A stretch of DNA of 64,000 nucleotides from Treponema sp. GTDB lineage: Bacteria; Spirochaetota; Spirochaetia; Treponematales; Treponemataceae. The DNA is taken from positions 33,509 to 97,508 of the forward strand of contig JAFUFU010000026.1 in the NCBI GenBank assembly GCA_017469785.1, written 5' to 3'. Both the position numbers and the translations under genes were made by a program. The notes below the pieces were generated by a model. The model was not told the origin of the DNA. It saw only the letters and a program-made list of their open reading frames with translations, and ran no database searches. Each line of letters starts with the position of its first letter. The first letter of the stretch is position 1. Of the stretch, positions 44,255 through 59,924 are shown piece by piece.

Positions 44255-44264
44255 GGTTTAAAAT

Positions 44265-44290
44265 AAAAAAAAACACCGCAAAAGCGGTGC
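44265..44290 (-). terminator. intrinsic terminator of rpmB
   Basis: Read on the minus strand, GCACCGC-TTTT-GCGGTG is followed by a run of T (A run 44265-44273 on the plus strand). Confidence 0.85.
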
Positions 44291-44298
44291 TTTCTGAA

Positions 44299-44532
44299 TT
44301 AGTTGGCAGCTGCAGGAGCGCCAGCGTTTGCGGGAACGACCGTGATTTTCTTTGTAACAAATCCAGAACGATAGCAGCGTGTGCAAACGTTCAGAGTTTC
44401 TGTTCGTCCGAAATCTTCCGTCTTTACCTTGATGATGTTTGGTCTCCAAGTGTGGCGTGTGTGGTTGTATGATTTACTAACTCTGTTACCAGACTGAGAA
44501 CCTTTTCCGCAGATATCACAAACTCTAGACAT
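44299..44532 (-). CDS. rpmB: 50S ribosomal protein L28
   Basis: L28 (77 aa) is a small ribosomal protein. The opening SRVCDICGKGSQSGNRVS, the central 'SYNHTRHTWRPNIIKVKT' and 'LNVCTRCYRSGFVTKKI' are standard. The C-terminal PANAGAPAAAN tail is an unusual extension. Four Cys residues in two CxxC pairs indicate the zinc-binding form. The gene is monocistronic, with a strong terminator. Confidence 0.95.
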   Translation of the reverse strand: MSRVCDICGKGSQSGNRVSKSYNHTRHTWRPNIIKVKTEDFGRTETLNVCTRCYRSGFVTKKITVVPANAGAPAAAN

Positions 44533-44640
44533 GATTTATACCTACCTAAAATTGAATACGAATTAAGTTCAAACATTCTACGAAAATAAATGCTGAGTGT
44601 CAATATATATGCGGCTGATTTCATAAAAATCTTCCCTATA

Positions 44641-44666
44641 CTTGTCCGTGTTGTCCGCGGTAGAAA
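44641..44666. repeat. partial triple-iteron repeat arm
   Basis: Iterations of TGTCCG(T/C)G in the gap between rpmB and the MBL hydrolase gene resemble a single, diverged arm of the repeats seen at 43731-43760 and 61366-61394. Confidence 0.35.
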
Positions 44667-44686
44667 TCAGCGTTGCAATCTCTGGC

Positions 44687-45610: not shown

Positions 45611-45617
45611 AAAAGGA

Positions 45618-45623
45618 ATTATA
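45618..45623 (-). promoter_or_regulatory. -10 box of the MBL hydrolase gene, predicted leaderless
   Basis: On the minus strand TGT-TATAAT is an extended -10 box ending 7 nt before the ATG at 45610. Confidence 0.65.
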
Positions 45624-45639
45624 ACAAAAATGAAGGACA

Positions 45640-45668
45640 TTGACCACCGCCCATTAAAAAGTTAAAAT
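45640..45668 (+). promoter_or_regulatory. sigma-70-type promoter of prs
   Basis: TTGACC (45640-45645), a 17-bp spacer and TAAAAT (45663-45668) form a near-consensus promoter. The leader is about 22 nt and contains AGGGAG, unlike the leaderless group. Confidence 0.8.
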
Positions 45669-45697
45669 AAGAACATCGAATAATTAGGGAGCCCTAC

Positions 45698-46975
45698 ATG
45701 CCATATTCAGAACCGACCAATCTTGGTGTTGTTGCTTGTCCGGGTGGCGCAGTATTTGCTGATGAAGTCATCGCTCATTTACGCCACATGTATAAACATC
45801 GTTTTGCACTCAAAAGCGATGTTATTTCAAAGAGATACAATCTTGAAAAGGATAAATTGGTTCAGGATATCAACTTCCGGAACGACCTTGCCACCTCTGA
45901 CTTGGTTGTGCGCGGTACAGTTGATAAATACCGTCCTCCTGTTTTCAAGGTGAACACGCAGTTTACTTGGTTTGCCAATGGCGAAGTAAAGGCTGAGCTT
46001 TTGGAGTGTGTTCGTGGTAAAGACATCTACATTTTCCAGGATGCCGAAAATCACGAGCCGATTCCCATGAACGGCGGAAAAAACATGGTCAATTTCTCAG
46101 TAAACGACCATGTAATGACTCTTCTTGTCACGATTGATGCTGTCCAGCAGGCTGGCGCAAAATCGATAACTCTTGTTCTTCCTGCTTTCCCTTACAGCCG
46201 TCAGCACAAAAAGAAGAGCCGGGAAGGTCTTACAGCTTCTCTTCTCTGCCACATTTACGAGCTCAAACATGTCACTCGCGTAATCACGCTGGATATTCAC
46301 TCGCGTGAAATCGTAAATGCTTTCAACACGACCTTCCTCGACAACCTGCACGCTTCGTATCAGATTATCCGGGAGCTTGCAAAAGTCGTAAATCTCTCAG
46401 GTCCAAATAAAGAAGACTTGGTCGTTGTTTCTCCAGACACAGGGGCTATCGACCGTAATAAATTCTATGCCACGGGGCTCAAGGTTCCTTTGGCAATGAT
46501 TTACAAAGAGCGGGATTATTCTGTGGTCACGCAGGATGCCAAAAATACAAACATCAAGAGTGTCAAGCTTTTGGGTGATGTCAAAGGCAAAGTCGCTTTC
46601 CTTGCAGATGATATGCTTGGTACCGGCGGAACCCTGCTCAAGGCAATGGAATTCCTCCACAACAACGGGGCTACAAAGGTTATCGCAGCTATTTCTCTCC
46701 CGTTCTTCAGCGGAAACGCCATCGAGCTTTTCGACCAGGCTTACAAAGACGGTCTTTTCTACCGCGTCATCGGTACGAACGCTGTCTATCACTCAGACTT
46801 GAAGGACAAAGAGTGGTTCGTCTCAACGAATGTTACCGGTCTCTTCGCAAACGTCATCACGCGAATCCATCACGACCAGTCTTTGAGCGATTTGCTTGAT
46901 AACCGTACGATTATCGACAAACTGATTAAAAAAGACTCTGACGCTGCTGCAAAAGCTGAGGCTAAAGCAGAGTAA
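45698..46975 (+). CDS. prs: Ribose-phosphate pyrophosphokinase, long form
   Basis: This enzyme makes PRPP for purine, pyrimidine and His/Trp synthesis. The N-terminal half has 'FTWFANGEVKAELLECVRGKDIYIFQD' (substrate loop), 'LPAFPYSRQHKKKSREGLTASL' (ATP loop) and 'ITLDIHSREIVNAF'. The PRPP-binding loop is 'VAFLADDMLGTGGTL'. At 425 aa it is over 100 residues longer than the common class I enzyme (about 315). Extra sequence lies at the N-terminus, near 65-95, and at the Ala/Lys-rich tail (DSDAAAKAEAKAE). It is followed two bases later by the FGGY-like gene. Confidence 0.9.
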   Translation: MPYSEPTNLGVVACPGGAVFADEVIAHLRHMYKHRFALKSDVISKRYNLEKDKLVQDINFRNDLATSDLVVRGTVDKYRPPVFKVNTQFTWFANGEVKAELLECVRGKDIYIFQDAENHEPIPMNGGKNMVNFSVNDHVMTLLVTIDAVQQAGAKSITLVLPAFPYSRQHKKKSREGLTASLLCHIYELKHVTRVITLDIHSREIVNAFNTTFLDNLHASYQIIRELAKVVNLSGPNKEDLVVVSPDTGAIDRNKFYATGLKVPLAMIYKERDYSVVTQDAKNTNIKSVKLLGDVKGKVAFLADDMLGTGGTLLKAMEFLHNNGATKVIAAISLPFFSGNAIELFDQAYKDGLFYRVIGTNAVYHSDLKDKEWFVSTNVTGLFANVITRIHHDQSLSDLLDNRTIIDKLIKKDSDAAAKAEAKAE

Positions 46976-46977
46976 TT

Positions 46978-48165
46978 TTGACGGACACAATCCTTTGCAT
47001 TGACATAGGAACTTCCTCTTTAAAAGCTGCCCTTTTGCCGGACAGCCTTTCAAAGGGGGAGATTTTTGTCTCCCGGCAGGCCTATCCTGTAAGCGCTATC
47101 CGGGAGAACAATTCTGCGCGGTATTATCTTTCCGCGCTTAAAAATGCCCTTTCTGAGCTTAGCGAAAAAAATCCTGATTATGCAATTGAGGCTGTTTGTA
47201 TAAGCGGTAACGGCCCTACTGTTGTTTCTGATGATGGGACGACGCTTTTGTACAGCGACGCACTCCCTCAGGAATGTCTTTCTCAAAAAAAATCAGAGTT
47301 AAAAAACACAAAATCGCTTTTTATCCCAAGATTCGCCGGCTTTCAATATCTGTTTGAAAAGAAATGGCGGAATTCCGCGCATGTTTTCGGCGCTGGCGAA
47401 TTCCTGATTCACGAATTGACAGGCGAGGCTGTTTCTATTCTTCCGGAAGAGCGTTTTTTGCCTGCATACTGGACGGAAGAAGAGCTTGTAAAGTGTGGTT
47501 TTCTGGATTCCGACATAAAGAAAATACCTCCGCTCAGGATGATGGGCTCTTTCTCTGGCAAGGTGAGCGAAAAGGCGGCCCTTGCAACGGGGCTTCTGGA
47601 AGGAACCTTTGTTTTTGCCGGAGCGCCTGATTTTGTGGTTGCCCTCTTGGGGACCGGGACTGTGTTTCCTGGGCGGCTCTGTGACAGGGCTGGAAGCAGC
47701 GAGGGCTTGAACCTCTGTACGGCAAAGCCTGTTTTTGCAGAAGGTTTAAGAACCCTCCCCAGCGCAATCCCGGGCTTGTGGAACGTTTCTTATCTTTTAA
47801 AATCCTCTCAGAGCTTAAGAGACAACAGAGAGACTTCTTTACGAGAAAATCCTTCACACAGAGGAGATTCCTCTGTGAACTCTGTGCCCTCCGTGAGGAA
47901 TTTTGCTGAACTTTCTCATGGAATCAGTCTTCTTCGGGAAGCGGCTGTGGCGCAGGGGGAGCCTTTCCCTGATTACATGACCATAACGGGGGGGCAGGCT
48001 CTGGACGGCGAGCTGATCTCCCTGAAAGAAAAAGCCACGGGGTTAAAAATCAAAAAAATGCCCTGTGCCGATGCCGAGCTTCTGGGGGACTTGATTCTTG
48101 CCCGTGTGTCCCTTGGTGATTATGACGATATTGAGGAAGCTGTTTTTGCGATTTTAGGAGCGTAA
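46978..48165 (+). CDS. FGGY-type carbohydrate kinase-like protein carrying a repeat insertion
   Basis: A 395-aa protein with the kinase opening 'TILCIDIGTSSLKAALL' (phosphate-1 motif), 'AVCISGNGPTVV' and a late 'TITGGQALDGEL' (adenosine motif). It is shorter than typical xylulokinase/glycerol kinase (about 490 aa). Residues about 275-308 (SQSLRDNRETSL...VNSVPSVRN) are encoded by a palindromic repeat element (47801-47903) and have no place in the fold. The start is TTG, because DIGTS follows at residue 9 and no ATG is nearby. Whether the kinase is active is unknown; the substrate cannot be read. Confidence 0.75.
   Translation: MTDTILCIDIGTSSLKAALLPDSLSKGEIFVSRQAYPVSAIRENNSARYYLSALKNALSELSEKNPDYAIEAVCISGNGPTVVSDDGTTLLYSDALPQECLSQKKSELKNTKSLFIPRFAGFQYLFEKKWRNSAHVFGAGEFLIHELTGEAVSILPEERFLPAYWTEEELVKCGFLDSDIKKIPPLRMMGSFSGKVSEKAALATGLLEGTFVFAGAPDFVVALLGTGTVFPGRLCDRAGSSEGLNLCTAKPVFAEGLRTLPSAIPGLWNVSYLLKSSQSLRDNRETSLRENPSHRGDSSVNSVPSVRNFAELSHGISLLREAAVAQGEPFPDYMTITGGQALDGELISLKEKATGLKIKKMPCADAELLGDLILARVSLGDYDDIEEAVFAILGA
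47801..47903. repeat. palindromic triple-iteron repeat, copy B, in frame inside the FGGY-like gene
   Basis: The left arm near 47803-47832 and the right arm 47870-47900 are inverted and imperfect. The right arm is CTCTGTGAA, CTCTGTGCC, CTCCGTGAG. A perfect 9-bp stem CACAGAGGA/TCCTCTGTG lies at 47857-47877. The element is about 102 bp, a multiple of three, and contains no stop in the coding frame. Confidence 0.75.
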
Positions 48166-48168
48166 TAT

Positions 48169-48849
48169 ATGGAAAAATTCAATCTTCCGGCAAATCCCCG
48201 GGTTCTTATTTTTGACATTGACATGACGCTCTATACCTGTCCCGAATATGCTCATGAGCAGATAGACTGCCAGATTCGGCACTGGGCGCAGCTGAAAGGT
48301 TATCAGGTTGATTCTGCCAGGGCGATGATTGCTGACTTCCGTAGAAAATGGGCGGCAGAACATAATGGACAGAAAATTTCCCTGGGAAACCTTTTCACCA
48401 GTTTCGGAGTGTCCATTGAGACCAGCATAGAGTGGCGCAAGACTCTTTTCAATCCTGCGGACTATCTTCACCGTGATGAAAAATTGATTTCGGCGCTTTC
48501 CGAGCTTTCAAAAAGCTTTTACATGATTTGCGTGACGAATAATCCCGTGGAGCCGGCCCGAAAGACTCTGGAAGTCATCGGTATTTCTGAATTCTTCCCT
48601 GAGATTATTGGTCTGGACACCTGCATGGCGTCAAAGCCATCCAAAAAAATCCTTGACGCTGCTCTTCAAAAGGCAAATGATTATTTTGAAAATCTTGGGG
48701 AGACCGGCAGGAAAATCAGCTATTCTGACTGTATTTCCATTGGCGACCGTTACGATATTGATCTGGCCCTTGCAATTGAGCTTGGAATGGGAGGAATTCT
48801 CGTTTCTGGAAGCGAAGAAGTTTGCAATCTTAGTGATATTTTGCTATAA
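48169..48849 (+). CDS. HAD-superfamily hydrolase (pyrimidine 5'-nucleotidase-like)
   Basis: The 226-aa protein has HAD motif I FDIDMTLYT (nucleophile and acid/base Asp), motif II in CVTNNP, the Lys of motif III in ASKPSKK and motif IV in SIGDRYDIDLALAIELG. 'YTCPEYAHEQIDCQIRHW' resembles the SDT1/PHM8 pyrimidine 5'-nucleotidase group. AGGAG lies before the ATG. It follows the kinase-like gene by 3 bp. Its last codons overlap the promoter of the tRNA locus. Confidence 0.85.
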   Translation: MEKFNLPANPRVLIFDIDMTLYTCPEYAHEQIDCQIRHWAQLKGYQVDSARAMIADFRRKWAAEHNGQKISLGNLFTSFGVSIETSIEWRKTLFNPADYLHRDEKLISALSELSKSFYMICVTNNPVEPARKTLEVIGISEFFPEIIGLDTCMASKPSKKILDAALQKANDYFENLGETGRKISYSDCISIGDRYDIDLALAIELGMGGILVSGSEEVCNLSDILL

Positions 48850-48850
48850 T
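48822..48850 (+). promoter_or_regulatory. promoter of the tRNA-Arg locus
   Basis: TTGCAA (48822-48827), a 17-bp spacer and TGC-TATAAT (48845-48850) form a good promoter that overlaps the end of the HAD gene. It lies upstream of the broken tRNA copy; no second promoter is visible between the two tRNA copies. Confidence 0.75.
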
Positions 48851-48868
48851 AATTACATCATATAAAAT

Positions 48869-48963
48869 GATCCCGTAGCTCAGCTGGATAGAGCATCAAA
48901 AACGCTTTCGCGTTTTACCTAATTGGAAGGTCGTGCGTTCTATCTTTTTGCGGTGAGCTACGG
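48869..48963 (+). pseudogene. Disrupted tRNA-Arg(CCU) copy with hairpin insertion
   Basis: Bases 48869-48897 are identical to the first 29 nt of the intact tRNA-Arg 105 bp downstream, and 48925-48940 match its variable/T-stem region. Between them the 12-nt anticodon segment is replaced by 27 nt, including the stem AAAACGC/GCGTTTT; only CCTAA of the loop remains. After TTC the sequence diverges, and TGAGCTACGG (48954-48963) is a perfect inverted copy of CCGTAGCTCA (48873-48882). The RNA cannot fold as a tRNA but can close into a long hairpin. It is probably transcribed with the intact gene. Confidence 0.85.
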
Positions 48964-48973
48964 CATTAACAAT

Positions 48974-49047
48974 GATCCCGTAGCTCAGCTGGATAGAGCA
49001 TCCGCCTCCTAAGCGGAAGGTCGTGCGTTCGAATCGCATTGGGGTCA
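48974..49047 (+). tRNA. tRNA-Arg (anticodon CCU)
   Basis: A 74-nt cloverleaf: acceptor GATCCCG/TGGGGTC, D-arm GCTC/GAGC, anticodon arm TCCGC/GCGGA around CTCCTAA, variable AGGTC, T-arm GTGCG/CGCAT around TTCGAAT, discriminator A. The anticodon CCU reads AGG. CCA is not encoded. Its last three bases overlap the stop codon of rmuC on the other strand. Confidence 0.97.
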
Positions 49048-49911
49048 ATCGCTGAGGCCATCAAGTTGATTTTCGACTTTGATGGCTTTTTCATTTATTT
49101 CTTTGAATTTTCCGTTGGCGTTTGTGATGTGCCGGCCGAGAACTGCGAGTTCGTTTGTGAAGTCTTTGAAGTCGTGCTGGATTCCCGTGATTTTTCTGAC
49201 GATGTTTTCGGCTTGTTCTTCGATTTTCATCCCTTTGAGTCCGTAGACGATTGACAGAAGGTAGGCGTAAAATGTGTTGGGCGAGACGATAATTACCTTG
49301 TTTTTCATGGCATATTCAAAAAGTTCGTGACATTTCATCTTTGTGTTTGTGAGAATTTCGTAATAGACGCTTTCGGAGGGAAGGTACATAAAGGCGAAGT
49401 CAAAAGTGCCTTCTTGGGGGCGGATGTATTTTTTGGCGATTTCATCGATTTTTTTTTTGACGGAACTGTAGAAATCGGTCATGGCTTTTTTTTGAGAATC
49501 TGCCTCATTGCTTTGCAGGTAGCGTTCCAGGCTTTCAAGGGGAAATTTTGAATCCACGGGAATGATTCTTTTTCCGAGCCTGATGATTGCGTCTACTGTC
49601 GAGCCGTCAGAGAATGAAAACTGTTCTGAATAATTTTTGGGCGGAAGACAGTCTTTCAGAAGGTTGTAAAGAAGATATTCGCCGAAGTTTCCCCGAAGTT
49701 TTGGGGCGTGAAGAATTGTTCTGAGGGAAGTGATTTCTCTGCTTATTTCCTGAAGATGAAGGGCATAAGATTCAAGTGAGGAAAGCTTTTGTGAGAATTC
49801 TGAGAAATTGCTGTTTTTTCGGGAAGCGAGCAAAAAAATGAGAATAATAAGCAGAATCATTAGAAAAAAAGCGAGTAATGCAATTATTAAATAGGGAAGC
49901 GGAAAATTCAT
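49045..49911 (-). CDS. rmuC: RmuC-family DNA-recombination protein
   Basis: A 288-aa membrane-anchored protein with TM helix (about 7-28), a short coiled coil and the RmuC nuclease-like domain. Signatures include 'RGNFGEYLLYNLLKDCLPPKNYSEQFSFSDGSTVDAIIRLGKRIIPVDSKFPLESLERYL' and 'FDFAFMYLPSESVYYEIL'. E. coli RmuC limits inversions at short inverted repeats, which is of interest in a region rich in them. It is shorter than the usual 400-500 aa because the coiled coil is reduced. The stop codon TGA (49047-49045) lies inside the 3' end of tRNA-Arg. Confidence 0.88.
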   Translation of the reverse strand: MNFPLPYLIIALLAFFLMILLIILIFLLASRKNSNFSEFSQKLSSLESYALHLQEISREITSLRTILHAPKLRGNFGEYLLYNLLKDCLPPKNYSEQFSFSDGSTVDAIIRLGKRIIPVDSKFPLESLERYLQSNEADSQKKAMTDFYSSVKKKIDEIAKKYIRPQEGTFDFAFMYLPSESVYYEILTNTKMKCHELFEYAMKNKVIIVSPNTFYAYLLSIVYGLKGMKIEEQAENIVRKITGIQHDFKDFTNELAVLGRHITNANGKFKEINEKAIKVENQLDGLSD

Positions 49912-49917
49912 AGCGGA

Positions 49918-49923
49918 ATTATA
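49918..49923 (-). promoter_or_regulatory. -10 box of rmuC, predicted leaderless
   Basis: On the minus strand TGA-TATAAT ends 6 nt before the ATG (49911). No Shine-Dalgarno sequence exists in the intervening TCCGCT. Confidence 0.65.
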
Positions 49924-49978
49924 TCACAAATCTGTGATTTGCACTTAATTTTCCATTTTTTAATTTTTGTTTTTAAAT

Positions 49979-49984
49979 TATAAT
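49979..49984 (+). promoter_or_regulatory. -10 box of the DUF4954 gene, predicted leaderless
   Basis: TATAAT ends 8 nt before the ATG at 49993. It faces the divergent rmuC -10 box about 55 bp away. Confidence 0.65.
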
Positions 49985-49992
49985 AAAATCCT

Positions 49993-52170
49993 ATGGTTTC
50001 AATAAGTAATATTCAGAATTCGGAAACTTTGCCGCCATTTTACAAGGATTTTTTGGACAACAAAAGGCAACTTAATCTTTCAGAAATTGAAATCCTCAAA
50101 AAGTGCAACAAGAATTCTGATTCATCTTGGCAAAATGTTTGGGTCGATAAAGATTCTTTCGATCCTTCTCTTATCTCCTGCTGTGAGATTTATGGTTTTC
50201 TCGTAATCGGTCGCCTCTCAAATTCAACATTGAAATATCATGACTTGGCTCTTGAAGAAGGCCTTTATGATTCCTATTTAGAGAACGTGGTCATCGGTGA
50301 TGACTGCGTGGTTCGGAACGTGCGTTATCTTTCGAATTACAAAATCGGAAACCGTAACATTCTCTTCAATATTAGCGAGATGAGTGCGACTGTTCATGCA
50401 AAATTCGGAAACGGAATCCTAAAAGATGGGGAGCCTGAGTCAAACAGGATTTGGATTGGTGTTGGCAACGAAAATGACGGTCGGGCGGTTCTTGCTTTTG
50501 AGAATATGATTACTGCCGACGCTTACATTTGGTCGAAATACCGCGGTGATTTGGTCTTGCAGAGGCGGTTGTTTGAAATCACTGAAAAACAGTTCCCTAA
50601 AGAACTCAATACTTTTGGCCTCACCGGTGACGATGTTGTTATCAAAAACATGACCCTGCTTAAAGATGCGAAAATCGGTGACAGCACTTACATCAAAGGG
50701 GCTTTTAAACTCAAGAATATCACGATTCTTTCGAGCGAAGAAGAGCCTAGCCAGATTGGTGAAGGTGTCGAGATGGTAAACGGAATTCTGGGGTATGCCT
50801 CGAGAGTTTTCTATCAGGCTGTCGCAGTCCGCTTTGTTATCGGGCGAAATTGCCAGCTCAAATACGGAGCACGGCTTTTGAATTCGATTCTGGGCGATAA
50901 TTCCACTGTTTCTTGCTGTGAAATCCTCAACAATCTTATTTTCCCCTTCCATGAGCAGCATCACAATTCCTCTTTCCTTATCGCGTCTACGGTCGGCGGA
51001 CAGAGCAACATCGCTTCGGGGGCGACAATCGGCTCAAACCACAATTCCCGTGCTGCTGACGGCGAAATGTATGCCGGACGCGGGTTCTGGCCCGGTTTAT
51101 GCTCGGACTTTAAGCACAATTCCCGTTTTGCAAGCTTCGTCCTTATTTCAAAAGGAAGTTATCAGCACGAGCTTAACATTACATATCCGTTTTCTCTCAT
51201 TGCAAGCAACGGTCCCTGCGAGCCGATTACGATTATTCCGGCCTACGCCTTCATGTACAATATGTATGCGGTGGCCAGGAACAAGGCGAAATTTGAAAAA
51301 CGCGATAAGCGTAAGATAAAAATCCAGAATATCGAGACGGATCCGCTGGCTCCTGACACGATTCAGGAAGTTGAGTATGCGTTGCGCAGAATCATCGAAT
51401 TGACCGGGAATTATCTTCTTTCTCAAAAAGACCGGTCAGCTTTGGAAGCCGGCTCAAAAGACGAGCTTTACCTTGTTGCCAAGAATTTCCTTCACCGTAA
51501 TCCTGACGCAGAATTCGGCCTGGTAGACAAGGATTCCCAGAAAAAATATGGAGCGATTGTCATTAAGCCGGTCAAGGCTTACCGCTCATATCGACGCATC
51601 ATCAAATATTTTGCAGTCCGTACGCTCTGTGATTATTGCGAGCGGAATCATAAGGACCGCCTGACAAGCGAAGATATTTTCAAGATTTCGGAAATGCCGC
51701 TTTTCTTATCTTGGGTGAACGTCGGCGGGCAGATTATTCCTGAAATCCGGCTTGAGCAGCTTTTTGAGCTGATAAAAGAACATAGGATTGATTCATGGGA
51801 TAAGGTTCACGACTATTATAACGGCTGTCAGGAAATGTACGAGGAATACAAGGTTGCCTATGCCCTTAACCTGCTTGAAAAATTGTACTCACGGCCTCTT
51901 TCTGATTTCAACCGCAAGATTTTTGACGGAATTATTTCAGACGTCCTCTTTGCGAATCAGGATATGTATGACGCGACGCTCGTTTCCCGAATGAAGGACT
52001 TTGATGACGAATTCCGTATGCAGACATTCAGGAACGCCCGTGAAATGGATGCGGTTCTTGGCGGAATCACTGACAATGAATTCATCCTTGAAATGAAGCA
52101 GGAAACCTCAGCCTTTGAAAAGAAGGTAAAAACTCTGTTTACAGAACTGACTTCCCTGTCTATTGACTAA
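49993..52170 (+). CDS. DUF4954 left-handed beta-helix protein
   Basis: A 725-aa protein with hexapeptide-like strands (LENVVIGDDCVVRNVRYLSNYKIGNRN; IGRNCQLKYGARLLNSILGDNSTVSCCEILNNL; IASGATIGSNHNSRAADGE), characteristic of left-handed beta-helix transferases. It matches the DUF4954 family seen in Bacteroidetes and treponemes, with a helical C-terminal half (about 440-725). The fold resembles UDP-GlcNAc acyl- or nucleotidyltransferases, and 'YAGRGFWPGLCSDFKHNSRFASF' may line an active site, but no activity is established. It stands alone between rmuC and leuA; the leuA promoter overlaps its stop codon. Confidence 0.85.
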   Translation: MVSISNIQNSETLPPFYKDFLDNKRQLNLSEIEILKKCNKNSDSSWQNVWVDKDSFDPSLISCCEIYGFLVIGRLSNSTLKYHDLALEEGLYDSYLENVVIGDDCVVRNVRYLSNYKIGNRNILFNISEMSATVHAKFGNGILKDGEPESNRIWIGVGNENDGRAVLAFENMITADAYIWSKYRGDLVLQRRLFEITEKQFPKELNTFGLTGDDVVIKNMTLLKDAKIGDSTYIKGAFKLKNITILSSEEEPSQIGEGVEMVNGILGYASRVFYQAVAVRFVIGRNCQLKYGARLLNSILGDNSTVSCCEILNNLIFPFHEQHHNSSFLIASTVGGQSNIASGATIGSNHNSRAADGEMYAGRGFWPGLCSDFKHNSRFASFVLISKGSYQHELNITYPFSLIASNGPCEPITIIPAYAFMYNMYAVARNKAKFEKRDKRKIKIQNIETDPLAPDTIQEVEYALRRIIELTGNYLLSQKDRSALEAGSKDELYLVAKNFLHRNPDAEFGLVDKDSQKKYGAIVIKPVKAYRSYRRIIKYFAVRTLCDYCERNHKDRLTSEDIFKISEMPLFLSWVNVGGQIIPEIRLEQLFELIKEHRIDSWDKVHDYYNGCQEMYEEYKVAYALNLLEKLYSRPLSDFNRKIFDGIISDVLFANQDMYDATLVSRMKDFDDEFRMQTFRNAREMDAVLGGITDNEFILEMKQETSAFEKKVKTLFTELTSLSID

Positions 52171-52191
52171 AAACCAGTAAAAAAGGATAAT
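52163..52191 (+). promoter_or_regulatory. sigma-70-type promoter of the leu leader-leuA transcript
   Basis: TTGACT (52163-52168), 17-bp spacer, GATAAT (52186-52191). The leader-peptide ATG (52198) begins 6 nt after the -10 box, so the leader ORF would be at the very 5' end of the RNA. Confidence 0.75.
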
Positions 52192-52197
52192 ATTGTT

Positions 52198-52245
52198 ATG
52201 TTTACACTATCGCTACTACTTCTGACTGAATCTTTCTCAAACTAG
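52198..52245 (+). CDS. Leucine attenuator leader peptide
   Basis: A 15-codon ORF encodes MFTLSLLLLTESFSN and stops with TAG. Five of its codons are Leu, four of them consecutive (CTA CTA CTT CTG), with a further CTA upstream. CTA appears rare in the neighbouring coding genes. It is followed 46 bp later by an intrinsic terminator and then by leuA, the first enzyme of leucine synthesis. This is the layout of a classical amino-acid attenuation leader: ribosome stalling at the Leu codons during leucine shortage would allow an antiterminator. I did not resolve the competing RNA structure. No promoter or ribosome binding site other than the box at 52186-52191 is needed. Confidence 0.8.
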   Translation: MFTLSLLLLTESFSN

Positions 52246-52290
52246 CTGAAAGCTTGGCCTGGTAGTGGTATCATATTTTCGTACATTACA

Positions 52291-52322
52291 AGACCTGCTG
52301 CTTTTGGCGGCAGGTCTTTTTT
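52291..52322 (+). terminator. leuA attenuator terminator
   Basis: AGACCTGC (52291-52298) pairs perfectly with GCAGGTCT (52310-52317) and is followed by T6. It lies between the Leu leader peptide and leuA. Confidence 0.9.
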
Positions 52323-52370
52323 ATTATGTCATGCTGAGTTTATTTTCAGCATCTCGCAAAGGAGAACAAA

Positions 52371-54041
52371 ATGAATGCAAAAAAGTACAGAGCATTTCCC
52401 GCGATTCCAATCGAGAATCGCACATGGCCTTCAAAACGAATCACGAAAGCACCAATCTGGTGTTCTGTTGATCTTCGCGACGGAAATCAGGCCCTTATCG
52501 ACCCGATGGGAATCGAGACAAAACTTGCTTTTTTTGACCTCCTTGTAAAGCTTGGCTTTAAAGAAATCGAAATCGGTTTTCCGTCAGCCAGCGACACTGA
52601 ATACGATTTTATCCGCCGTCTCATAGACGAAAACCGCATTCCGTCCGACGTGACGATTCAGGTTTTGTGTCAGGCCCGGGAAAAGCTTGTACGCCGCACC
52701 ATGGAATGCATCAAGGGCGCGCCCAGCGTAATCTTCCATATTTACAATTCTACATCTCCTGCCCAGCGAAAATATACTTTCAACAAGAGTAAGGAAGAAA
52801 TCATCAAAATCGCTGTTGACGGCGTAAAATGCATCAAAGAGTGCATGAAGGATTTGAGCGAAGAAGACCGCAAAAAGATTCGCCTTGAATACTCGCCCGA
52901 AAGCTTCTCAATGACCGAAATCGATTATGCCATCGAAATCTGTGAGGCCGTGGGAAACGAGTGGGGCTGGTCAAAAGATAATAAAATCATCTTTAATCTT
53001 CCGACAACCGTTGAGTGCTACACTCCCAACATTTACGCTGACTCAATCGAATATTTCGCCTCAAAAATCTCTCACAGGGATTGCGTGATTATATCAACCC
53101 ACTGCCACAATGACCGGGGAACGGGCGTCGCTTCCTGTGAGCTTGGTCTTTTGGCGGGAGCCGACCGTGTTGAAGGCTGTCTCTTCGGAAACGGCGAGCG
53201 CACTGGAAACCTTGACATCGTAACGGTCGCCCTCAACATGTTCAGCGAGGGAGTTGATCCAGAACTTGATTTTTCAAATCTCCCTGACATCGCCGACGCA
53301 TATCAGGATTACACCAAAATGGAAATCAATCCCCGCTCTCCTTATGCAGGCGGTTTGGCTTACACTGCTCTTTCTGGCGGTCATCAGGACGCAATCGCAA
53401 AGGGCTTTGCTGCCCGTGCAAAAATGAGCGAGGACGCAATCTGGGACGTTCCATATCTTCTCATAGATCCTCACGATATCGGCCGCAAGTACGAGGGCAT
53501 CATCCGAATCAATTCCCAGAGCGGAAAGGGCGGAGCCAGCTTCATTCTGGAGCACAACTACGGTTACGCAATCCCGAAGGCCATGCAGCCTGCAATAGGA
53601 AATCTTATCAAGGCAAAGAGCGATGCCGCCCAGCGTGAGCTCCAGCCTGAGGAAATCCTTAAATTCTTCGAGGAGCAGTGGATTGGCAGAAAAGAGCCGT
53701 TGTCCGTCCTTGATTTGGCCTCAACCCAGCTTGAGGGCCACGACGAGAGCGAGCATGTCGCCTGCCGCGGTGTTGTCCTTTACAAGGGCGAAAAATACTC
53801 AATCGGAGGCAAGGGAAACGGTCCGCTGGATTCATTTGTCTCGGCTCTTTCGGGAACTCCGGTTCCAGAATTCAATATCACTGCCTTCCATGAGCATTCT
53901 CTTGGACAAGGAAGCGATACCAGCGCGGTTGCTTATGTTGAGATTACAATGGCTGATGGTTCACAGAAATGGGGTGTCGGAAAATCATCAAATGTCGGAA
54001 AAGCCGGTATTGGCGCCGTCGTAAGCGCATTGAATCAGTAA
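52371..54041 (+). CDS. leuA: 2-Isopropylmalate synthase
   Basis: LeuA (556 aa) condenses acetyl-CoA with 2-ketoisovalerate, the committed step of leucine synthesis. The long LeuA2-type is recognised by the N-terminus 'NAKKYRAFPAIPIENRTWPSKRITKAPIWCSVDLRDGNQAL', the metal ligands in LRDGNQ and HCHNDRGTG and 'GNGERTGNLDIV'. A C-terminal regulatory domain (about 430-556) for leucine feedback ends 'TSAVAYVEITMADGSQKWGVG'. AAGGAG precedes the ATG by 6 nt. No other leu genes follow: an M16 peptidase is next. Control is likely double, by attenuation at the RNA level and by the feedback domain. Confidence 0.95.
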   Translation: MNAKKYRAFPAIPIENRTWPSKRITKAPIWCSVDLRDGNQALIDPMGIETKLAFFDLLVKLGFKEIEIGFPSASDTEYDFIRRLIDENRIPSDVTIQVLCQAREKLVRRTMECIKGAPSVIFHIYNSTSPAQRKYTFNKSKEEIIKIAVDGVKCIKECMKDLSEEDRKKIRLEYSPESFSMTEIDYAIEICEAVGNEWGWSKDNKIIFNLPTTVECYTPNIYADSIEYFASKISHRDCVIISTHCHNDRGTGVASCELGLLAGADRVEGCLFGNGERTGNLDIVTVALNMFSEGVDPELDFSNLPDIADAYQDYTKMEINPRSPYAGGLAYTALSGGHQDAIAKGFAARAKMSEDAIWDVPYLLIDPHDIGRKYEGIIRINSQSGKGGASFILEHNYGYAIPKAMQPAIGNLIKAKSDAAQRELQPEEILKFFEEQWIGRKEPLSVLDLASTQLEGHDESEHVACRGVVLYKGEKYSIGGKGNGPLDSFVSALSGTPVPEFNITAFHEHSLGQGSDTSAVAYVEITMADGSQKWGVGKSSNVGKAGIGAVVSALNQ

Positions 54042-54057
54042 GGCAGGGTTGTCTTTG

Positions 54058-55584
54058 ATGTTAAAAAAGAGATTTTTATTTGTCTTGGTTTTTGCCTGTC
54101 TCTTTTCAGTTTTTTGCGAAAGAACTTCAATTGACGGAGTGTACCGCTACAAACTTGAAAACGGGCTTGAGCTTTTTGTTGCAGAAAATGATTCCGCGCC
54201 CCTTGCCTATATCGAAATCGCTGTTCGCGCAGGTGCTGTTACGCAAACTCCAGAAACGGCTGGTTTGTTCCACTTGTATGAGCACATGATGTTCAAGGGA
54301 AATGCAAAATACGAAAATCAGGATGCTTTCACTGATGCTGCCAACGAAATGGGGCGTATTGACGAGAATGGCTCGACTGGCGTGGACAGAGTGAATTATT
54401 TTTTCACAGTACCTTCTTCTCAAGTTCGTAACGGGCTTGAATTCTGGTCTTACGCGATTCGTACTCCAAAGTTGAATGAAGGCGAGCTTGAGAATGAAAA
54501 GGCCGTCGTTTTGTCTGAAATCGGAGCAGATTTTACGGATCCTGCCCATATCCGCTCCGCAGCCTTGTTCAAGACCATGTTCCCAAGAAGCCCATGGCGC
54601 CTTGATCCTTCAGGAAATCCTGTCGTCGTTCGGAACGCCACCGCTGAAACTCTCAGGGACATACAAAAAAAATATTACGTTCCGGCAAATTCGGCAATTT
54701 TTGTCGGTGGAGATGTCCGGCATGATGAGGTTTATCAATATGTCAGCGAAATTTATTCCGACTGGAAGAACCCTGCGGAAGCGGTGGCCTTTGAAGAGCC
54801 TGAGTCAAAAAAGCCTCTTCTTCGGGACAAGAAACTTGTTTTTGTAAATCCGGGAAGCTCGGACGGCATAATTCAAATTTCATATTATCTTCGCGGCCCT
54901 GATGGAGAGACGGACGCATCTGATACCTATGCGGCTGACGTGTGGACTGCCCTCGTGAACAGCCCCAGCGGTATATTCGCCCGGACTTTTATTTCAGAGC
55001 CTGCGCTGGAAATCCCTGAGAGCGATTACATCGGTGCTTCCTATCCGACACGGCGGGCAAGCGGTCTTATTGGATTTTATGGAGCCATGCTGAATGTACC
55101 CAAAGATGAAGCCCGTGACGGTAATTATGGATTTGGGGATTTTTCCGTCCTCCCTTCAAATGGATTGAATCCTGCCGAAAAAGCCGATTTTTTTCTTTCC
55201 GTCCTAAAACAGAAAGCTGTCCCTGCCATGTGCGACAAGTCTGTTTTTTTCAAAGACAAAAGCGTGGATTTTGTGATTCGGCAGCTGGAAGACGGGCGGA
55301 TTTATGAGCTTGAGGAAGCCGAGTCCGTGCTTTCCTCTCTTTCTTTTTTCTGGTCAAGTTGCGGCTCGGATTATTTTTTCTCTTACGATGATAATATTGC
55401 TTCCGTTACTGAAGATGATGTCATCGCTTTCGTGCAGAAATACATTCAGGGAAAATCCGGAACTCTTCTTGTTTCTGTCAGCCCTGAAATCTGGTCAAAA
55501 TATAAAAATGCCTTTCTTTCAAATGGTTATGAAGAAATCCGGGCGGAACAGGCTTTCTGGCAGAATGATTATGCCGGTAACTAA
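54058..55584 (+). CDS. M16-family zinc metallopeptidase, catalytically intact
   Basis: A 508-aa exported protein with signal LKKRFLFVLVFACLFSVFC. The mature part has the inverted zinc motif HLYEH in GLFHLYEHMMFKG and the third ligand Glu in 'ELENEKAVVLSEI'. The C-terminal half is a second M16 fold ('KKYYVPANSAIFVGGDV'). It forms an active-inactive pair with the next gene, the common bacterial arrangement. The substrate is probably periplasmic peptides, but unproven. ATG 54058 was chosen over TTG 54049. Confidence 0.88.
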   Translation: MLKKRFLFVLVFACLFSVFCERTSIDGVYRYKLENGLELFVAENDSAPLAYIEIAVRAGAVTQTPETAGLFHLYEHMMFKGNAKYENQDAFTDAANEMGRIDENGSTGVDRVNYFFTVPSSQVRNGLEFWSYAIRTPKLNEGELENEKAVVLSEIGADFTDPAHIRSAALFKTMFPRSPWRLDPSGNPVVVRNATAETLRDIQKKYYVPANSAIFVGGDVRHDEVYQYVSEIYSDWKNPAEAVAFEEPESKKPLLRDKKLVFVNPGSSDGIIQISYYLRGPDGETDASDTYAADVWTALVNSPSGIFARTFISEPALEIPESDYIGASYPTRRASGLIGFYGAMLNVPKDEARDGNYGFGDFSVLPSNGLNPAEKADFFLSVLKQKAVPAMCDKSVFFKDKSVDFVIRQLEDGRIYELEEAESVLSSLSFFWSSCGSDYFFSYDDNIASVTEDDVIAFVQKYIQGKSGTLLVSVSPEIWSKYKNAFLSNGYEEIRAEQAFWQNDYAGN

Positions 55585-55602
55585 TGTGATGGGGGATATG
55601 AG

Positions 55603-56991
55603 ATGAATTCTAAATTGAAATTATTGCTTAAGAATTTATATGGAGGCCTGTCTCTTGTTTTTTTTGCTTTTGCGACGATTTTCCTTTATTCCTGCGGATC
55701 GACAAAAAATACCGTTGCCGCTCCTTCGGAGGTCTCTGAATTTTCAAAAAAACAGCTCTCAAATGGAATTCCTGTGATTTTCAAGCAGAACCGTGGCAGT
55801 AAAATCGTTGTCCTCAAGATGGTTTTCGAGGGCGGAACAAGTGCGATTGACAGGACGATGAGCGGAATCGAGAATCTTACCCTTGACTTGATGCTGCGCG
55901 GCTCTGAAAAATATCCTTATGCGAAGATCCAGCAGCTCGAATACGAAAAGAGCTTTTCTTTTTCATCTTCTTCGGGAAAAGATTATTCTACTATCGGTTT
56001 TGTCTGTATTCAGCGTGATCTTGCGGAAGTCCTTGATATTTTTTCTGAATGCCTGATGCATCCGCAGTTTTTGGAATCTGACTTCAACCAGAAAATGGTC
56101 GAGGCAGCCTCTGCGATTTCTGCCAGAAAAGCTGATCCTTCCGGGGCTTTGGGAACTGCCATTACGAAATCGGTGTTCAAAAATCATCCCTACGAAACGA
56201 GTTCCCTTATAACCGAAGATTCCTTGCCAAATATAAAATTGAATTTGGTGCTGGGGACTTATCAGGAGCTTTTGAGCGCCCTTCGAATAAAAATCATCGT
56301 TGTCGGGAATTTCAATTCTGAGCTTATAAATGATTTCACGGGAGAGCTTGAGGCTTCTTTTGGAAGTATCCAGAGAAAGGCATTTTCTCTTCCAAAAATC
56401 CCTAAAGTTTTTGTGAATGCAGAGACCTTGCGTATTGCGAACGAGCAGGCCGGAGACACGGGATATGTGGCCGGCTTGTTCAGCTGTCCTTCCCGCAACG
56501 ATGCTGACTATATTCCTTTCGCTATCGCGACGATGTATCTCGATGACTTGCTTTTTTCTCAGGTCCGGGAAAAGGCTGGTGCAGTTTATTCCATAAATAC
56601 TGGCGTTCTTGGCGGAAAGGAGTTTGTTGCCGTTCTTTCAGGATATAAGGTCACTGACAAAGAGAATTTCAAGAAAGCTGTTTTTGATACGATTCTTTCA
56701 TACGACGAGAAGGCTATTGAGCAGAAACTTTCTCAGTACAAGAACAAATATATTTCTTCGCTTTTCAGTTCGTCACAGAGCGCGTCTGGTGTGGCTTCGA
56801 ATATTATTTCCAGCATTGAGTATTATGGAGCTGAAGACGCTTATATGCATCGTGTTGACTCTGTCCAGTCAGTAAATGCCCGGCAGGTAATTGATGCATA
56901 CAAAAAATATGTGCTTCCTGTTGCCCAGCGGAACAATGCCCAGTGGGTTATTGTAGACGGAAAAGATAATCTCCAGAAATACGATTTTTAA
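55603..56991 (+). CDS. M16-family peptidase-like lipoprotein, inactive partner
   Basis: The 462-aa protein has a lipobox signal ending IFLYSC and M16 folds ('NGIPVIFKQNRGSKIVVLKMVFEGGTS', 'LYLDDLLFSQVREKAGAVYSINTG'). At the position of HxxEH it reads 'GIENLTLDLMLRG', so the zinc motif is missing. In such pairs the partner supplies the R/Y residues that bind substrate (here REKAGAVYS). GGGGG precedes the ATG, 18 bp after the active subunit. Confidence 0.88.
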   Translation: MNSKLKLLLKNLYGGLSLVFFAFATIFLYSCGSTKNTVAAPSEVSEFSKKQLSNGIPVIFKQNRGSKIVVLKMVFEGGTSAIDRTMSGIENLTLDLMLRGSEKYPYAKIQQLEYEKSFSFSSSSGKDYSTIGFVCIQRDLAEVLDIFSECLMHPQFLESDFNQKMVEAASAISARKADPSGALGTAITKSVFKNHPYETSSLITEDSLPNIKLNLVLGTYQELLSALRIKIIVVGNFNSELINDFTGELEASFGSIQRKAFSLPKIPKVFVNAETLRIANEQAGDTGYVAGLFSCPSRNDADYIPFAIATMYLDDLLFSQVREKAGAVYSINTGVLGGKEFVAVLSGYKVTDKENFKKAVFDTILSYDEKAIEQKLSQYKNKYISSLFSSSQSASGVASNIISSIEYYGAEDAYMHRVDSVQSVNARQVIDAYKKYVLPVAQRNNAQWVIVDGKDNLQKYDF

Positions 56992-57024
56992 AACGAAAAC
57001 ATCAAAAAAAATGTCTGTTTTGCT

Positions 57025-57068
57025 AAAGCCTTGAGGAAAATCAAGCGCTTCAGAAAGCAGGCTTTTTT
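57025..57068 (+). terminator. terminator-like structure after the M16 pair
   Basis: AAAGCC and GGCTTT enclose two smaller stems (CTTGA/TCAAG and GCTT/AAGC), followed by a T run. It is a multi-branch terminator rather than a simple stem. Confidence 0.5.
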
Positions 57069-57082
57069 ATTATGAGCGTTTT

Positions 57083-57901
57083 TTAAACCGAAGGCTTCTC
57101 GTAGTCTGTCCTGTCCAAATCGCTGGAGCGAATAGAAGCGCGCAGTGCCGTAGTGAGGTTTTCTGCGATATATCCGCGGATTTTATTGATAGCGTTTGGA
57201 GTTGTTGATGCCGTGAACATGATGACGACCAGAAGGAAATCGCCGGCGTCTTTTATGGCAGAAATCTTAATGTCAACAGAAACCTGTACACTCTTGAGAT
57301 TGAGGGTGACATTTTCGATAATCTGGTTGATGAATACCGCGTTCGCCTGTCCAGAGGAAAGTTTTGCCGCAATTCCCACGGAAGAAATGTCGATGATTTT
57401 GAGCTTGAACATGCGGTTGTCTTTGAGCCAGAGCAAATCAGCCTGTGATTCGTTGAGACAATTTGCGCGGACGTATTTTCGCAATCCTTTTGCGCCTTGT
57501 GCGTCGATTGCTTTTACAATCTCGTGAAAAAGCTCCTCGGAATCCTTATGCAAATCGAAGAGACCAGCATCGTATTGAAGGTCTGAGAGAAAATTCTGCT
57601 TTTTGTCATCGGGAAGCTCCGATATGAAAATTCCCATGTCGAGGGATTTAAATACGTTTTCTTCTTCAAAAGATTTTAGGAAATTGTGCCAGCCTTTTAG
57701 CGTAAGTTGTGACTCTGTGATAAAAAAGCAAATTGAATCAGCATTTTTTCGGAGAAGAGGTTTCGCTTTTCTGTAGTCATCAATAGCATAGACTTCATAT
57801 TCCATAAGCCGCAATCTATCGATGACGCTTGTTTCAAAACTTACGGTCGGGTTGACAAAGAAAACCTTTCGACCGTAAATGGATTTGTCTGCATCTGCCA
57901 T
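57083..57901 (-). CDS. PilZ-domain protein with receiver-like N-terminus
   Basis: A 272-aa cytoplasmic protein. The N-terminal about 130 residues have a receiver-like alternation ('RKVFFVNPTVSFETSVIDRLRLMEYEVYAIDDYRKAKPLL') but no clear phosphoacceptor. The PilZ domain follows with RKYVR (RxxxR) and DISSVG (DxSxxG), the c-di-GMP-binding motifs, and both are intact. It is a likely effector for the cyclases in the window, perhaps of motility or gene expression. Start has TAGGAG upstream. It converges with the M16 genes. Confidence 0.82.
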   Translation of the reverse strand: MADADKSIYGRKVFFVNPTVSFETSVIDRLRLMEYEVYAIDDYRKAKPLLRKNADSICFFITESQLTLKGWHNFLKSFEEENVFKSLDMGIFISELPDDKKQNFLSDLQYDAGLFDLHKDSEELFHEIVKAIDAQGAKGLRKYVRANCLNESQADLLWLKDNRMFKLKIIDISSVGIAAKLSSGQANAVFINQIIENVTLNLKSVQVSVDIKISAIKDAGDFLLVVIMFTASTTPNAINKIRGYIAENLTTALRASIRSSDLDRTDYEKPSV

Positions 57902-58040
57902 AAAACACTCCTATTCTTACTCTCTCCATGTATATACTATACATAGGGCCTGACATTTGGAAGAGTAGACGCACTAAAACTCTTAAAATTATATAAGAGT
58001 TTTAGCAATTTCACAATAGAAAATTATTTGGTTGTTCGTT

Positions 58041-59924
58041 TCATTCCCAGCCGAATGTTGCCGGCGGTTTGTTGGTTGCATCATAGTAAAGGGCGTCAAC
58101 GAAAGGCAGGGCCGCAATTTCCCTTACGATTTTATTGAGCAAATCCCGGTCAAGCTGGGCAAATCTGGCCGTCATCACGTCTTCTGAGCAGACCGGACGG
58201 AGAACAAAACTCGCTCGTTCTGGTGAAGAAGCATATGGAAGGTCGATGGTCAGGTGCTGGAAAATTTTATCGTACCATCCGGCTTCGTGAAGGTTCGTAA
58301 GGACTATGTTGTCTACCTCACGGAGCTGGTCAAGGCGGCGGCGGTCACAGTAGCCTTCCTGAAGAGCCATGTCGCTTTCCTTTACATTTGGATTCTGGTA
58401 GAGGGCGATTACGCAGCGGTTCAAGAGCTTTGCCGAATTTGTGATGTTGCTTGATTCGTCCTCGATTTTCTTCCAGTGCTTCGGAAAATGACAGAAGCCG
58501 TTTTCTTCGTCTTTCCTGAACCTCAATACAGCCGGGAAGCGATAGGTGCGGAAGTCGCCCTGAACGCCCACTGATTTTACGGGAAGCACGTATTTTTGCA
58601 TTGTGGCTGTGCAGTGCTCGCAGAAGTGGGAGATTTTGATTGAGTCAAGTTCTTTCTGAGCTTCTTCCAGTTCTTTTTTGTCTTCGGCTGAGAGCACGCC
58701 ATTGGAGCAAAGAACGTTGATTGAAAGTCCCGGTCCCGGGAAAGGATGGCGCATGACAAGCTGGTCGTCAAGGCCTAGTTTTTTACCCATTGCACGTACT
58801 TCGTCCTTGTACAAATCTTTGAGTGGCTCGATGATGAGCCCTTTTGCGATGAGTTTTTGTATTCCATCGACGCGGTTGTGGTGGGTCTTGATTGTATGGG
58901 AATTTTTTGTTCCGCCCGACTCGATGATGTCCGGATAAAGGGTTCCCTGAGCCAGCATCCAGTCGTCCTCATTGAGTTTTTGTGCTGAAACAACCGAGTC
59001 GCGCACGGTAATGAAGTTCTCGCCCACGGCCATGCGTTTTTTCTGCGGGTCAGTGAGACCTTTTATCGCGTTAAGGAAGCTTTCGCTTGCGTCCTCGACG
59101 ATGAAATTATTGAATCCGAATTTGTGGTAGGCTTCGGCAACGTTCTTTGACTCGTTTTTTCGCATGAAGCCGTTGTCGATGTGGAGACCGAGAACCCGTT
59201 CCTGTCCCAGGGCTTTGTTGAGAAGGGCAAAGGCCACGGTTGAATCGACGCCACCGCTTAAAAAGAGAAGAACATTCTTGTCTTTTGCGTCAGACTTGAT
59301 TGAGTCAAGAATGTGGTTCAATACAGTGTCTTCGTCCCAGTTTACTTCCATTCCGCAGATGTCGGCAAAGTTCCTGAAGATTTTGTTGCCCTCCGGAGTA
59401 TCTTTTACTTCGCAGTGGCACTGGAGGCTGAAGCGCTTTTTTGAAAGATTCTGCAAGGCTGCATAAGGGCAGTCTTTCGTAGTTCCGATAACTTCAAATC
59501 CTTCGCCCAAAGAAAGAACTCCGTCCTGATGGCTCATCCAAACCTGAGTGGTAAGGGAAACGCCCTTGAAAAGAGGAGATGCTTTTCCTGCTTCATTGAT
59601 GTTAAGCTCTGCAAAACCGAATTCTCCGACCTCCGCCTTTCCGACCGAGCCTCCGTAGCTTTTTGACATGAGCTGATGACCATAACAAAGGCCGAGAATG
59701 GGAAGGTTCAAGTCAAGAATCTTTTCGTTGAACTCAGGAACATCTTTTTCGTAAACGCTTGAAGGTCCTCCTGAAAAAACCACGCCCTTAGCATCCTCAA
59801 AGACACTTAAATCTGCGCTCGGAAGTGCAATCTCAGAATAATATCCCATCGCACGGAAACGCTTTGCAATCAAATGAGCGTACTGCGAGCCAAAGTCAAG
59901 AACAACGATTTTAGAACGATTCAT
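58041..59924 (-). CDS. guaA: GMP synthase (glutamine-hydrolysing), long form
   Basis: GuaA converts XMP to GMP. The class-I glutaminase (about 1-190) has the nucleophile in LGLCYGHQLM and HCE/VKDT near 'FSLQCHCEVKD'. The ATP pyrophosphatase has the P-loop FLSGGVDSTVAF. The C-terminal dimerisation domain reads 'LPVKSVGVQGDFRTYRFPAVL' and ends PPATFGWE. At 627 aa it is about 100 residues longer than E. coli GuaA (525). The extra sequence lies in the C-terminal region and recalls the eukaryotic long form. GGAG lies before ATG 59924; the open frame continues 4 codons upstream to a TTG. Confidence 0.94.
   Translation of the reverse strand: MNRSKIVVLDFGSQYAHLIAKRFRAMGYYSEIALPSADLSVFEDAKGVVFSGGPSSVYEKDVPEFNEKILDLNLPILGLCYGHQLMSKSYGGSVGKAEVGEFGFAELNINEAGKASPLFKGVSLTTQVWMSHQDGVLSLGEGFEVIGTTKDCPYAALQNLSKKRFSLQCHCEVKDTPEGNKIFRNFADICGMEVNWDEDTVLNHILDSIKSDAKDKNVLLFLSGGVDSTVAFALLNKALGQERVLGLHIDNGFMRKNESKNVAEAYHKFGFNNFIVEDASESFLNAIKGLTDPQKKRMAVGENFITVRDSVVSAQKLNEDDWMLAQGTLYPDIIESGGTKNSHTIKTHHNRVDGIQKLIAKGLIIEPLKDLYKDEVRAMGKKLGLDDQLVMRHPFPGPGLSINVLCSNGVLSAEDKKELEEAQKELDSIKISHFCEHCTATMQKYVLPVKSVGVQGDFRTYRFPAVLRFRKDEENGFCHFPKHWKKIEDESSNITNSAKLLNRCVIALYQNPNVKESDMALQEGYCDRRRLDQLREVDNIVLTNLHEAGWYDKIFQHLTIDLPYASSPERASFVLRPVCSEDVMTARFAQLDRDLLNKIVREIAALPFVDALYYDATNKPPATFGWE

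Follow-up and report, generated by a model that had tools for sequence, protein, structure and literature searches.

How can a ribosome operate a leucine attenuator if the leader peptide is encoded at the very start of the RNA? This question is raised by the region upstream of leuA in a 64,000-nucleotide stretch of Treponema sp. DNA (hereafter the window), which lies on contig C30, one of 63 contigs in a 3.24-Mb assembly whose closest named relatives are Treponema metagenome-assembled genomes, mainly ruminant-derived. A preliminary description of this DNA had proposed that a classical attenuation leader precedes leuA, with its open reading frame (ORF) at the extreme 5′ end of the transcript. 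Sequence comparison with relatives reveals the parts of this element, their conservation, a set of competing pairings and a characteristic promoter-to-AUG spacing, and leads us to consider it highly probable that leuA is governed by a ribosome-mediated transcription attenuator whose leader ORF lies at the RNA 5′ end.

All features described here are on the forward strand. A sigma-70-type promoter, TTGACT-17-GATAAT, could be read directly at 52163–52191. Its −35 hexamer TTGACT (52163–52168) overlaps the stop codon of an upstream DUF4954 gene, which ends at 52170 and so inside the promoter, and a 17-nucleotide (nt) spacer leads to the −10 hexamer GATAAT (52186–52191), 6 nt before the leader ATG at 52198. 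The leader ORF (MFTLSLLLLTESFSN*, 52198–52245; 15 codons, with TAG at 52243–52245) would start at or beside the predicted transcription start and contains four consecutive Leu codons, CTA CTA CTT CTG (52213–52224), as the putative stalling site, together with an additional Leu codon, CTA, at 52207–52209. Both the promoter with its 6-nt gap and the four-leucine ORF were found where the preliminary description had placed them. An intrinsic terminator (52290–52322; a 13-pair hairpin at 52290–52318, followed by a T-run) lies between this short Leu-rich ORF and the matching gene, leuA, in the order that had been described, but 44 nt rather than 46 nt after the leader stop codon. The putatively regulated gene, leuA (52371–54041), encodes a yeast-type 2-isopropylmalate synthase (TIGR00970, above cut-off) and has a directly legible Shine–Dalgarno sequence, AAAGGAG, at 52358–52364. 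The description had also held that every part of an attenuator was visible, which was true of ORF, terminator and leuA; the antiterminator it left unnamed is located below.

The module recurs in front of leuA in the same family. A leuA search at E up to 1e-100 found the gene in 219 of 274 family genomes, and 138 upstream regions were reduced to 131 distinct ones by removing seven duplicate contigs (L003–L009). These 131 comprise the window, 29 regions among the leuA matches listed, the named record L010 and 100 fetched stretches (from 106 listed regions, with G162, G076, G094, G180, G172 and G216 omitted). A leader was found in 121 of the 131, counting the window; the rule recognised 115 of these, and inspection by eye added 6. 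The other ten were nine regions with no leader and one cut at a contig end. Given this recurrence, we take the module in the window to be more than a chance arrangement.

A covariance model was built from 63 leaders (64 representatives minus L134; alignment A1), with the window leader among them, so that its match to that leader (E 2e-11) arises by construction. Run with strict filters and an E cut-off of 0.001, the model matched 103 of the 390 genomes searched in the order; the matches compared by eye lay directly upstream of leuA, except for the second places described below. It found no convincing second copy in the 3.24-Mb genome, where the other match (E 0.38) had no leader. A second match in genome G197 was set aside as a plain terminator without a leader.

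Beyond this sample, a second and mostly more divergent set yielded leaders in 17 of 43 regions, by a rule that includes promoter score and whose spacings are consequently not independent evidence. Three of these 17 belong to a group of six loci taken from other families within the order: L317, where TTGACA-17-TACTAT ends 6 nt before the leader ATG, is leaderless by spacing, and L316 and L315, with best promoters 17 and 14 nt from the ATG, are not leaderless by the same test. Among 72 yeast-type leuA loci outside the family (L011–L082; ORF limit 42 amino acids), seven had a Leu-rich ORF. One of these, L011, and L316 are a single locus; the remaining six look like chance.

Leucine accounts for 604 of the 1937 codons in the 115 rule-called leaders, partly by construction because the rule requires Leu. 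Of these 604, 337 are CTA, a codon that supplies 31 of 1635 Leu codons (1.9%) in 39 ORFs of the window and 2.6% of the Leu codons in 248 ORFs (373 kb). Across leaders the Leu run draws on five different codons (CTA, CTT, CTG, TTG and TTA), and in 64/64 representatives 4–7 codons, start included, come ahead of it. Such variation in codon, in a run that keeps its distance from the start, fits selection for leucine itself and not for RNA pairing alone, and the leader is probably translated. The preliminary description had named the absence of conserved Leu codons in close relatives as grounds for giving up its reading; they are conserved.

A strong promoter was found within 24 nt of the leader ATG in 99 of the 115 leaders, and its −10 hexamer ends 6–7 nt before the ATG in 79, a count for which the choice of leader start used promoter score. 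With blind choices, 72/115 leaders (taking the ATG nearest the Leu run) or 63/115 (taking the most upstream ATG) had a strong −10 at 6–7 nt, compared with 4 of 843 other ATGs in the same regions. Because of this spacing, transcription is expected to begin at the A of the AUG or 1–2 bases away. A Shine–Dalgarno-like motif preceded 8 of the 115 leaders in an 11-nt window and was absent before 107, versus 96/115 leuA starts that had one in a 23-nt window, made wider since the leuA start is approximate. In the window itself, the string AAGGA (52182–52186) precedes the leader ATG inside the promoter; lying upstream of the predicted start, it would be absent from the RNA, which would have no Shine–Dalgarno sequence ahead of the leader. 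The leuA leader thus very probably has a leaderless start, as the preliminary description had suggested for the window alone and as the spacing in relatives now supports for a predicted 5′ end.

Leaderlessness is probably the main but not the sole solution to ribosome loading. Eight relatives (L158, L169, L171, L172, L174, L178, L181 and L185) have no strong promoter at the leader ATG, and there the ATG overlaps or adjoins the stop codon of the upstream gene (−1 to +3 nt). The upstream proteins in these eight are alike by eye, with Pfam RRM_1 confirmed in both of the two tested, and the leader is probably reached by ribosomes finishing the RRM gene.

Apparently leaderless arrangements were also seen away from the leader. 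Five regions with no leader (L111, L113, L193, L194 and L210) have, by eye, a −10-like hexamer a few nucleotides before the leuA ATG, as if leuA itself were leaderless. In the genome that holds the window (G000), promoters with a −10 placed 6–7 nt before an ATG occurred at 28 places, compared with 8 in a reversed control, and 18 of these ATGs are followed by frames of 85 codons or more; among 230 genes, 23 had a −10-like hexamer 6 nt ahead of the first ATG, compared with about 10 per position elsewhere, although position 11 also had 22. These counts are only suggestive of leaderless genes being common in this genome.

For a ribosome to control termination, an antiterminator must compete with the terminator, and a candidate was found at the leader stop codon. 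The segment GCTGAAAGC (52245–52253), whose first base is also the final base of that codon, forms a nine-base pairing with GCTTTTGGC (52300–52308), a stretch made up of the end of the terminator 5′ arm, the loop and the start of the 3′ arm. The two strands change together in relatives, for instance to GCCTAAG with CTTAGGC. In a swap test on the 64 representatives, the strands paired with their own terminators at −13.76 kcal/mol compared with −11.09 (standard deviation 0.28) for exchanged partners, a value that none of 5000 exchanges equalled; a negative control with an upstream segment was equalled in 1394/5000 (62 leaders). The own terminator was better than the median partner in 55/64 leaders. 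In a column test on 63 sequences, 80.3% of antiterminator cells were paired versus 70.3% after shuffling (0/500), with 40 double-change cells versus 14.3 (0/500) and a covariation score of 0.283 versus 0.142 (0/500), and sliding the helix by 1–3 columns lowered these measures every time. For the terminator helix, 98.7% of cells were paired in the same 63 sequences, with 58 double-change cells.

Two further pairings passed swap tests. The first is a protector (anti-antiterminator) stem, seen in the minimum-energy fold, which joins the Leu-codon region to the segment between stop codon and terminator; in the window its 5′ arm (52212–52220) lies inside the Leu codons and its 3′ arm is GGTAGTGGT (52261–52269). 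Own partners scored −15.80 versus −12.59 (0/5000; 64 leaders). The second is an inner stem of the antiterminator, seen in nascent-RNA folds, in which the stretch shared with the protector (GTAGTG, 52262–52267) pairs with a conserved box immediately before the terminator (CATTAC, 52284–52289; −5.66 versus −4.52, 0/5000; 57 leaders). As a whole, the window leader RNA folded better than its shuffles (z-score −3.96; 0/200 as good). The covarying alternative stems that the preliminary description had proposed looking for in related treponemes are present in antiterminator and protector and, with the conserved leader and its CTA-rich Leu run, they back its proposal of Leu-codon attenuation of leuA.

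The position of the antiterminator relative to the ribosome points the same way. When whole leaders were searched, the best partner of the terminator loop fell, in 108 of the 115 leaders, at least partly inside the stretch that a ribosome at the stop would occupy (−6 to +12 nt), with 54.5 expected at random; among the 64 representatives it did so in 59, with 30.0 expected. Restricting the search to a stretch reaching 18 nt upstream and 24 nt downstream of the stop gave 113/115, partly by construction. The antiterminator 5′ strand lies a median 18 nt (quartiles 17–21) beyond the final Leu codon of the run, in a search limited to the neighbourhood of the stop codon. With this distance and placement, a stalled ribosome would leave the strand free and a finishing ribosome would cover it. 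The terminator between ORF and gene is accompanied, as far as pairing and geometry go, by an antiterminator placed where a ribosome could control it.

Another segment, GGTAGTGG, had been considered as an antiterminator strand pairing with the terminator 5′ arm; that pairing is weak, with many G-U pairs, and the stop-codon segment that covaries with the loop was preferred. Separately, TTTCAGC at 52344–52350, 3′ of the terminator, is complementary to GCTGAAA (52245–52251) and may be a further pairing partner; the same TTTCAGC also takes part in a small inverted repeat with 52331–52337.

We infer the exact 5′ end, the leucine response and the kinetics of the leuA attenuator from these sequence features, and propose that it would work as follows. 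RNA synthesis would start at, or 1–2 nt from, the leader AUG, where a ribosome would load without a Shine–Dalgarno sequence. With ample Leu-tRNA, the ribosome would reach the stop codon at 52243 and cover 52245–52253, the terminator (52290–52318) would form and RNA synthesis would end. With scarce Leu-tRNA, it would stall on CTA/CTA/CTT/CTG (52213–52224), before the antiterminator segment, so that 52245–52253 and the segment after it could pair with the terminator loop region and CATTAC before the terminator 3′ arm was made, and polymerase would continue into leuA. If no ribosome loaded, the Leu-codon region would pair with 52261–52269 and the terminator would win again.

Several observations weigh against this reading. 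A leader is missing from 9 of the 131 regions, two of them with LeuA 90–93% identical, and was not called in 26 of the 43 of the second set (2 of these 26 were cut short). The first choice of leader starts relied on promoter score, with the count at 6–7 nt dropping to 72 or 63 of 115 under blind choices, and 16 of the 115 leaders have no strong promoter near the ATG. The own terminator is the single best antiterminator partner in only 4/64 leaders, the swap tests do not remove relatedness, and the numbers of pairs with double changes and of pair types were reached by 8 and 14 of 500 shuffles. Folds of the nascent RNA, taken before the terminator 3′ arm is complete, speak for the switch in their medians, which are −22.1 kcal/mol with the ribosome on the Leu codons and −8.5 with it at the stop codon, beside −17.7 for the terminator hairpin (n = 115). 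In the window the three values are −20.0, −14.5 and −21.1. The comparison is uneven, since stalling leaves a longer stretch of RNA free, and serves as illustration, not proof. At equilibrium the window's completed terminator prevails (about 0.999) whichever of the three ribosome states is assumed, and stalling lowers the value by more than 0.2 in only 38/115 leaders. As equilibrium favours the terminator, the switch must act kinetically, being decided during transcription.

Other explanations of the locus share some of this evidence. The same attenuator might sit on an RNA that is not leaderless, with transcription starting further upstream, for example as RNA running on from the DUF4954 gene, and with the leader read by coupling or weak initiation. 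The end of that gene inside the promoter would suit such an arrangement, and a coupled mode probably does exist in the eight relatives whose leader abuts an RRM-gene stop codon with no strong promoter. Yet a strong promoter stands 6–7 nt from the ATG in the window and in 72–79 of the 115 leaders, and a Shine–Dalgarno-like motif is missing before 107 of them, so for the window we regard an upstream start as unlikely. The DUF4954 gene also invites another account, namely that the hairpin downstream of it is its own intergenic terminator, that leuA is driven from elsewhere and that the ORF is there by chance. To this we give almost no credence in view of the covarying antiterminator and protector, the CTA enrichment and the promoter spacing, and the same module stands behind an RRM gene in the eight relatives.

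Conserved alternative pairings could equally belong to a ligand-sensing structured RNA, a riboswitch or T-box, in which the ORF is incidental. However, a scan of 44000–64000 against Rfam found no T-box, riboswitch or Leu_leader match at E up to 1; the Leu codons vary yet stay Leu, the run keeps its 4–7 codons from the start in the 64 representatives, and His replaces Leu before hisG in some relatives. This makes a ligand-sensing RNA very improbable here. The scan did return an Enterococcus small RNA, EF3314_EF3315, spanning the terminator, at 27.4 bits against a threshold of 100, which we took as chance. What the comparison supports well is a ribosome-mediated leucine attenuator that is textbook-like except that its antiterminator targets the loop of the terminator and its RNA very probably opens directly with the leader ORF.

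The textbook case is the enteric leuL-leuABCD attenuator (Rfam Leu_leader), in which a leader peptide with four adjacent Leu codons and rare CTA codons is followed by a terminator and competing stems, with leuA next. The treponeme leader resembles the enteric one in its adjacent Leu codons, use of CTA, terminator, competing stems and following leuA. It differs in its predicted lack of both an untranslated 5′ stretch and a Shine–Dalgarno sequence, in a Leu run that begins at codon 6, and in an antiterminator that pairs with the terminator loop and both arm ends, with no Leu_leader match at E up to 1.

The preliminary description had called the leaderless layout unusual, which is so beside the textbook case, but there are precedents, known to us from passages of the sources cited here. 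For the ilvBNC attenuator of Corynebacterium glutamicum, a three-hairpin switch, the transcription start lies a single nucleotide away from the AUG of the leader, and control by Val is lost once the Val codons are exchanged (PMC11857589, citing Morbach et al. 2000). Leaderless leader and switch are as predicted for the treponeme, although ilvBNC is a case of branched-chain control in an actinobacterium. Streptomyces lividans leuL1, before leuA, is likewise leaderless with a Leu run (MRFGLLLLSCRGEGL), but is described as without a typical terminator (PMC8079986), and in the LEU element of actinobacteria, a pseudoknot, the Leu codons are base-paired to the Shine–Dalgarno sequence of leuA (PMC1262725). 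The RNA of Sinorhizobium meliloti trpL (rnTrpL) begins with the leader AUG, as predicted for the treponeme, and its attenuator yields a short RNA (PMC7298713); that leader senses Trp, and its short RNA and peptide act in trans. The Corynebacterium diphtheriae ilvB leader is also leaderless (PMC5784534). For spirochaetes, PMC4833913 counts short leader genes in Spirochaetales, in a main text where neither ‘Treponema’ nor ‘leucine’ was seen, and cites a 2010 attenuator survey (Lopatovskaya et al.). Like the preliminary description, which knew of no spirochaete leu attenuator, our literature searches, covering few subscription journals and in part judged from the titles listed, found no report of a leaderless or leu attenuator in treponemes or other spirochaetes; an earlier prediction may exist. 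Leaderless attenuators are thus a known kind, to which the present comparison adds a spirochaete version, depth of conservation, a His counterpart and an RRM-coupled clade.

The His counterpart came to light when the Leu-leader model also matched two sites upstream of hisG in another genus, where the leaders read MTEIRLHLHHHLFSA and MTELRLHLHRHLFSA. By a rule of three His within eight codons, a His-rich leader precedes hisG in 10 of 27 relatives judged (genera g5, g17 and g20), two of 29 (L359 and L367) having been excluded for lack of the motif used to judge; the identity of hisG was confirmed for L355. In 6 of the 10, a scan found a TA-hexamer 6–7 nt before the ATG with TTGACA upstream, and several His leaders are apparently leaderless. 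They would represent the same chassis as the Leu leader with a natural codon swap. His leaders with terminators were seen at L355:261-380 and upstream of hisG in L356, L357, L363, L364, L366 and L368, and further ones before hisG in L369, L372, L373, L377 and L380; L356 and L366 are from the same genome, as are L355 and L369.

Other amino-acid loci gave less. Neither by eye nor by rule was a leader found before this genome's hisG, its two ilvB-like genes or its LeuA-like paralogue. The trpE family PF04715 had no match in this genome, and a rule of at least two Trp codons found no Trp leader at 12 of 13 trpE loci, the thirteenth being unreadable. At L241:1342-1451 (genome G000, contig C8), a 5S ribosomal RNA gene immediately precedes an acetolactate synthase-like gene. 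Genome G116 has a second Leu-type leader, MKFAVLLLSYFFSN (L353:513-640), 1.9 kb upstream of its leuA leader and preceding a gene for an aminotransferase whose resemblance to PhnW is below cut-off. In the window, the two genes 3′ of leuA resemble M16-type peptidases (NCBIfam matches below cut-off), and thus no other leu gene lies directly downstream.

We lean, by a small measure, towards a broader view: that leaderless attenuation is an old and general form of amino-acid gene control in treponemes and their relatives. Promoter and regulator would be fused, with the −10-to-AUG distance selected for ribosome loading on the first nucleotides; one chassis would serve Leu (leuA) and His (hisG) by codon swap, and in one clade RRM stop–start coupling would have replaced the promoter. 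Spirochaetes would thereby gain a ribosome-controlled amino-acid switch with more than 100 natural variants, including the His leaders and a clade that is loaded differently. In this switch the sensing codons begin only 12–21 nt from the leader start, and the natural variants make it testable how a ribosome that starts on a bare 5′ end keeps step with polymerase.

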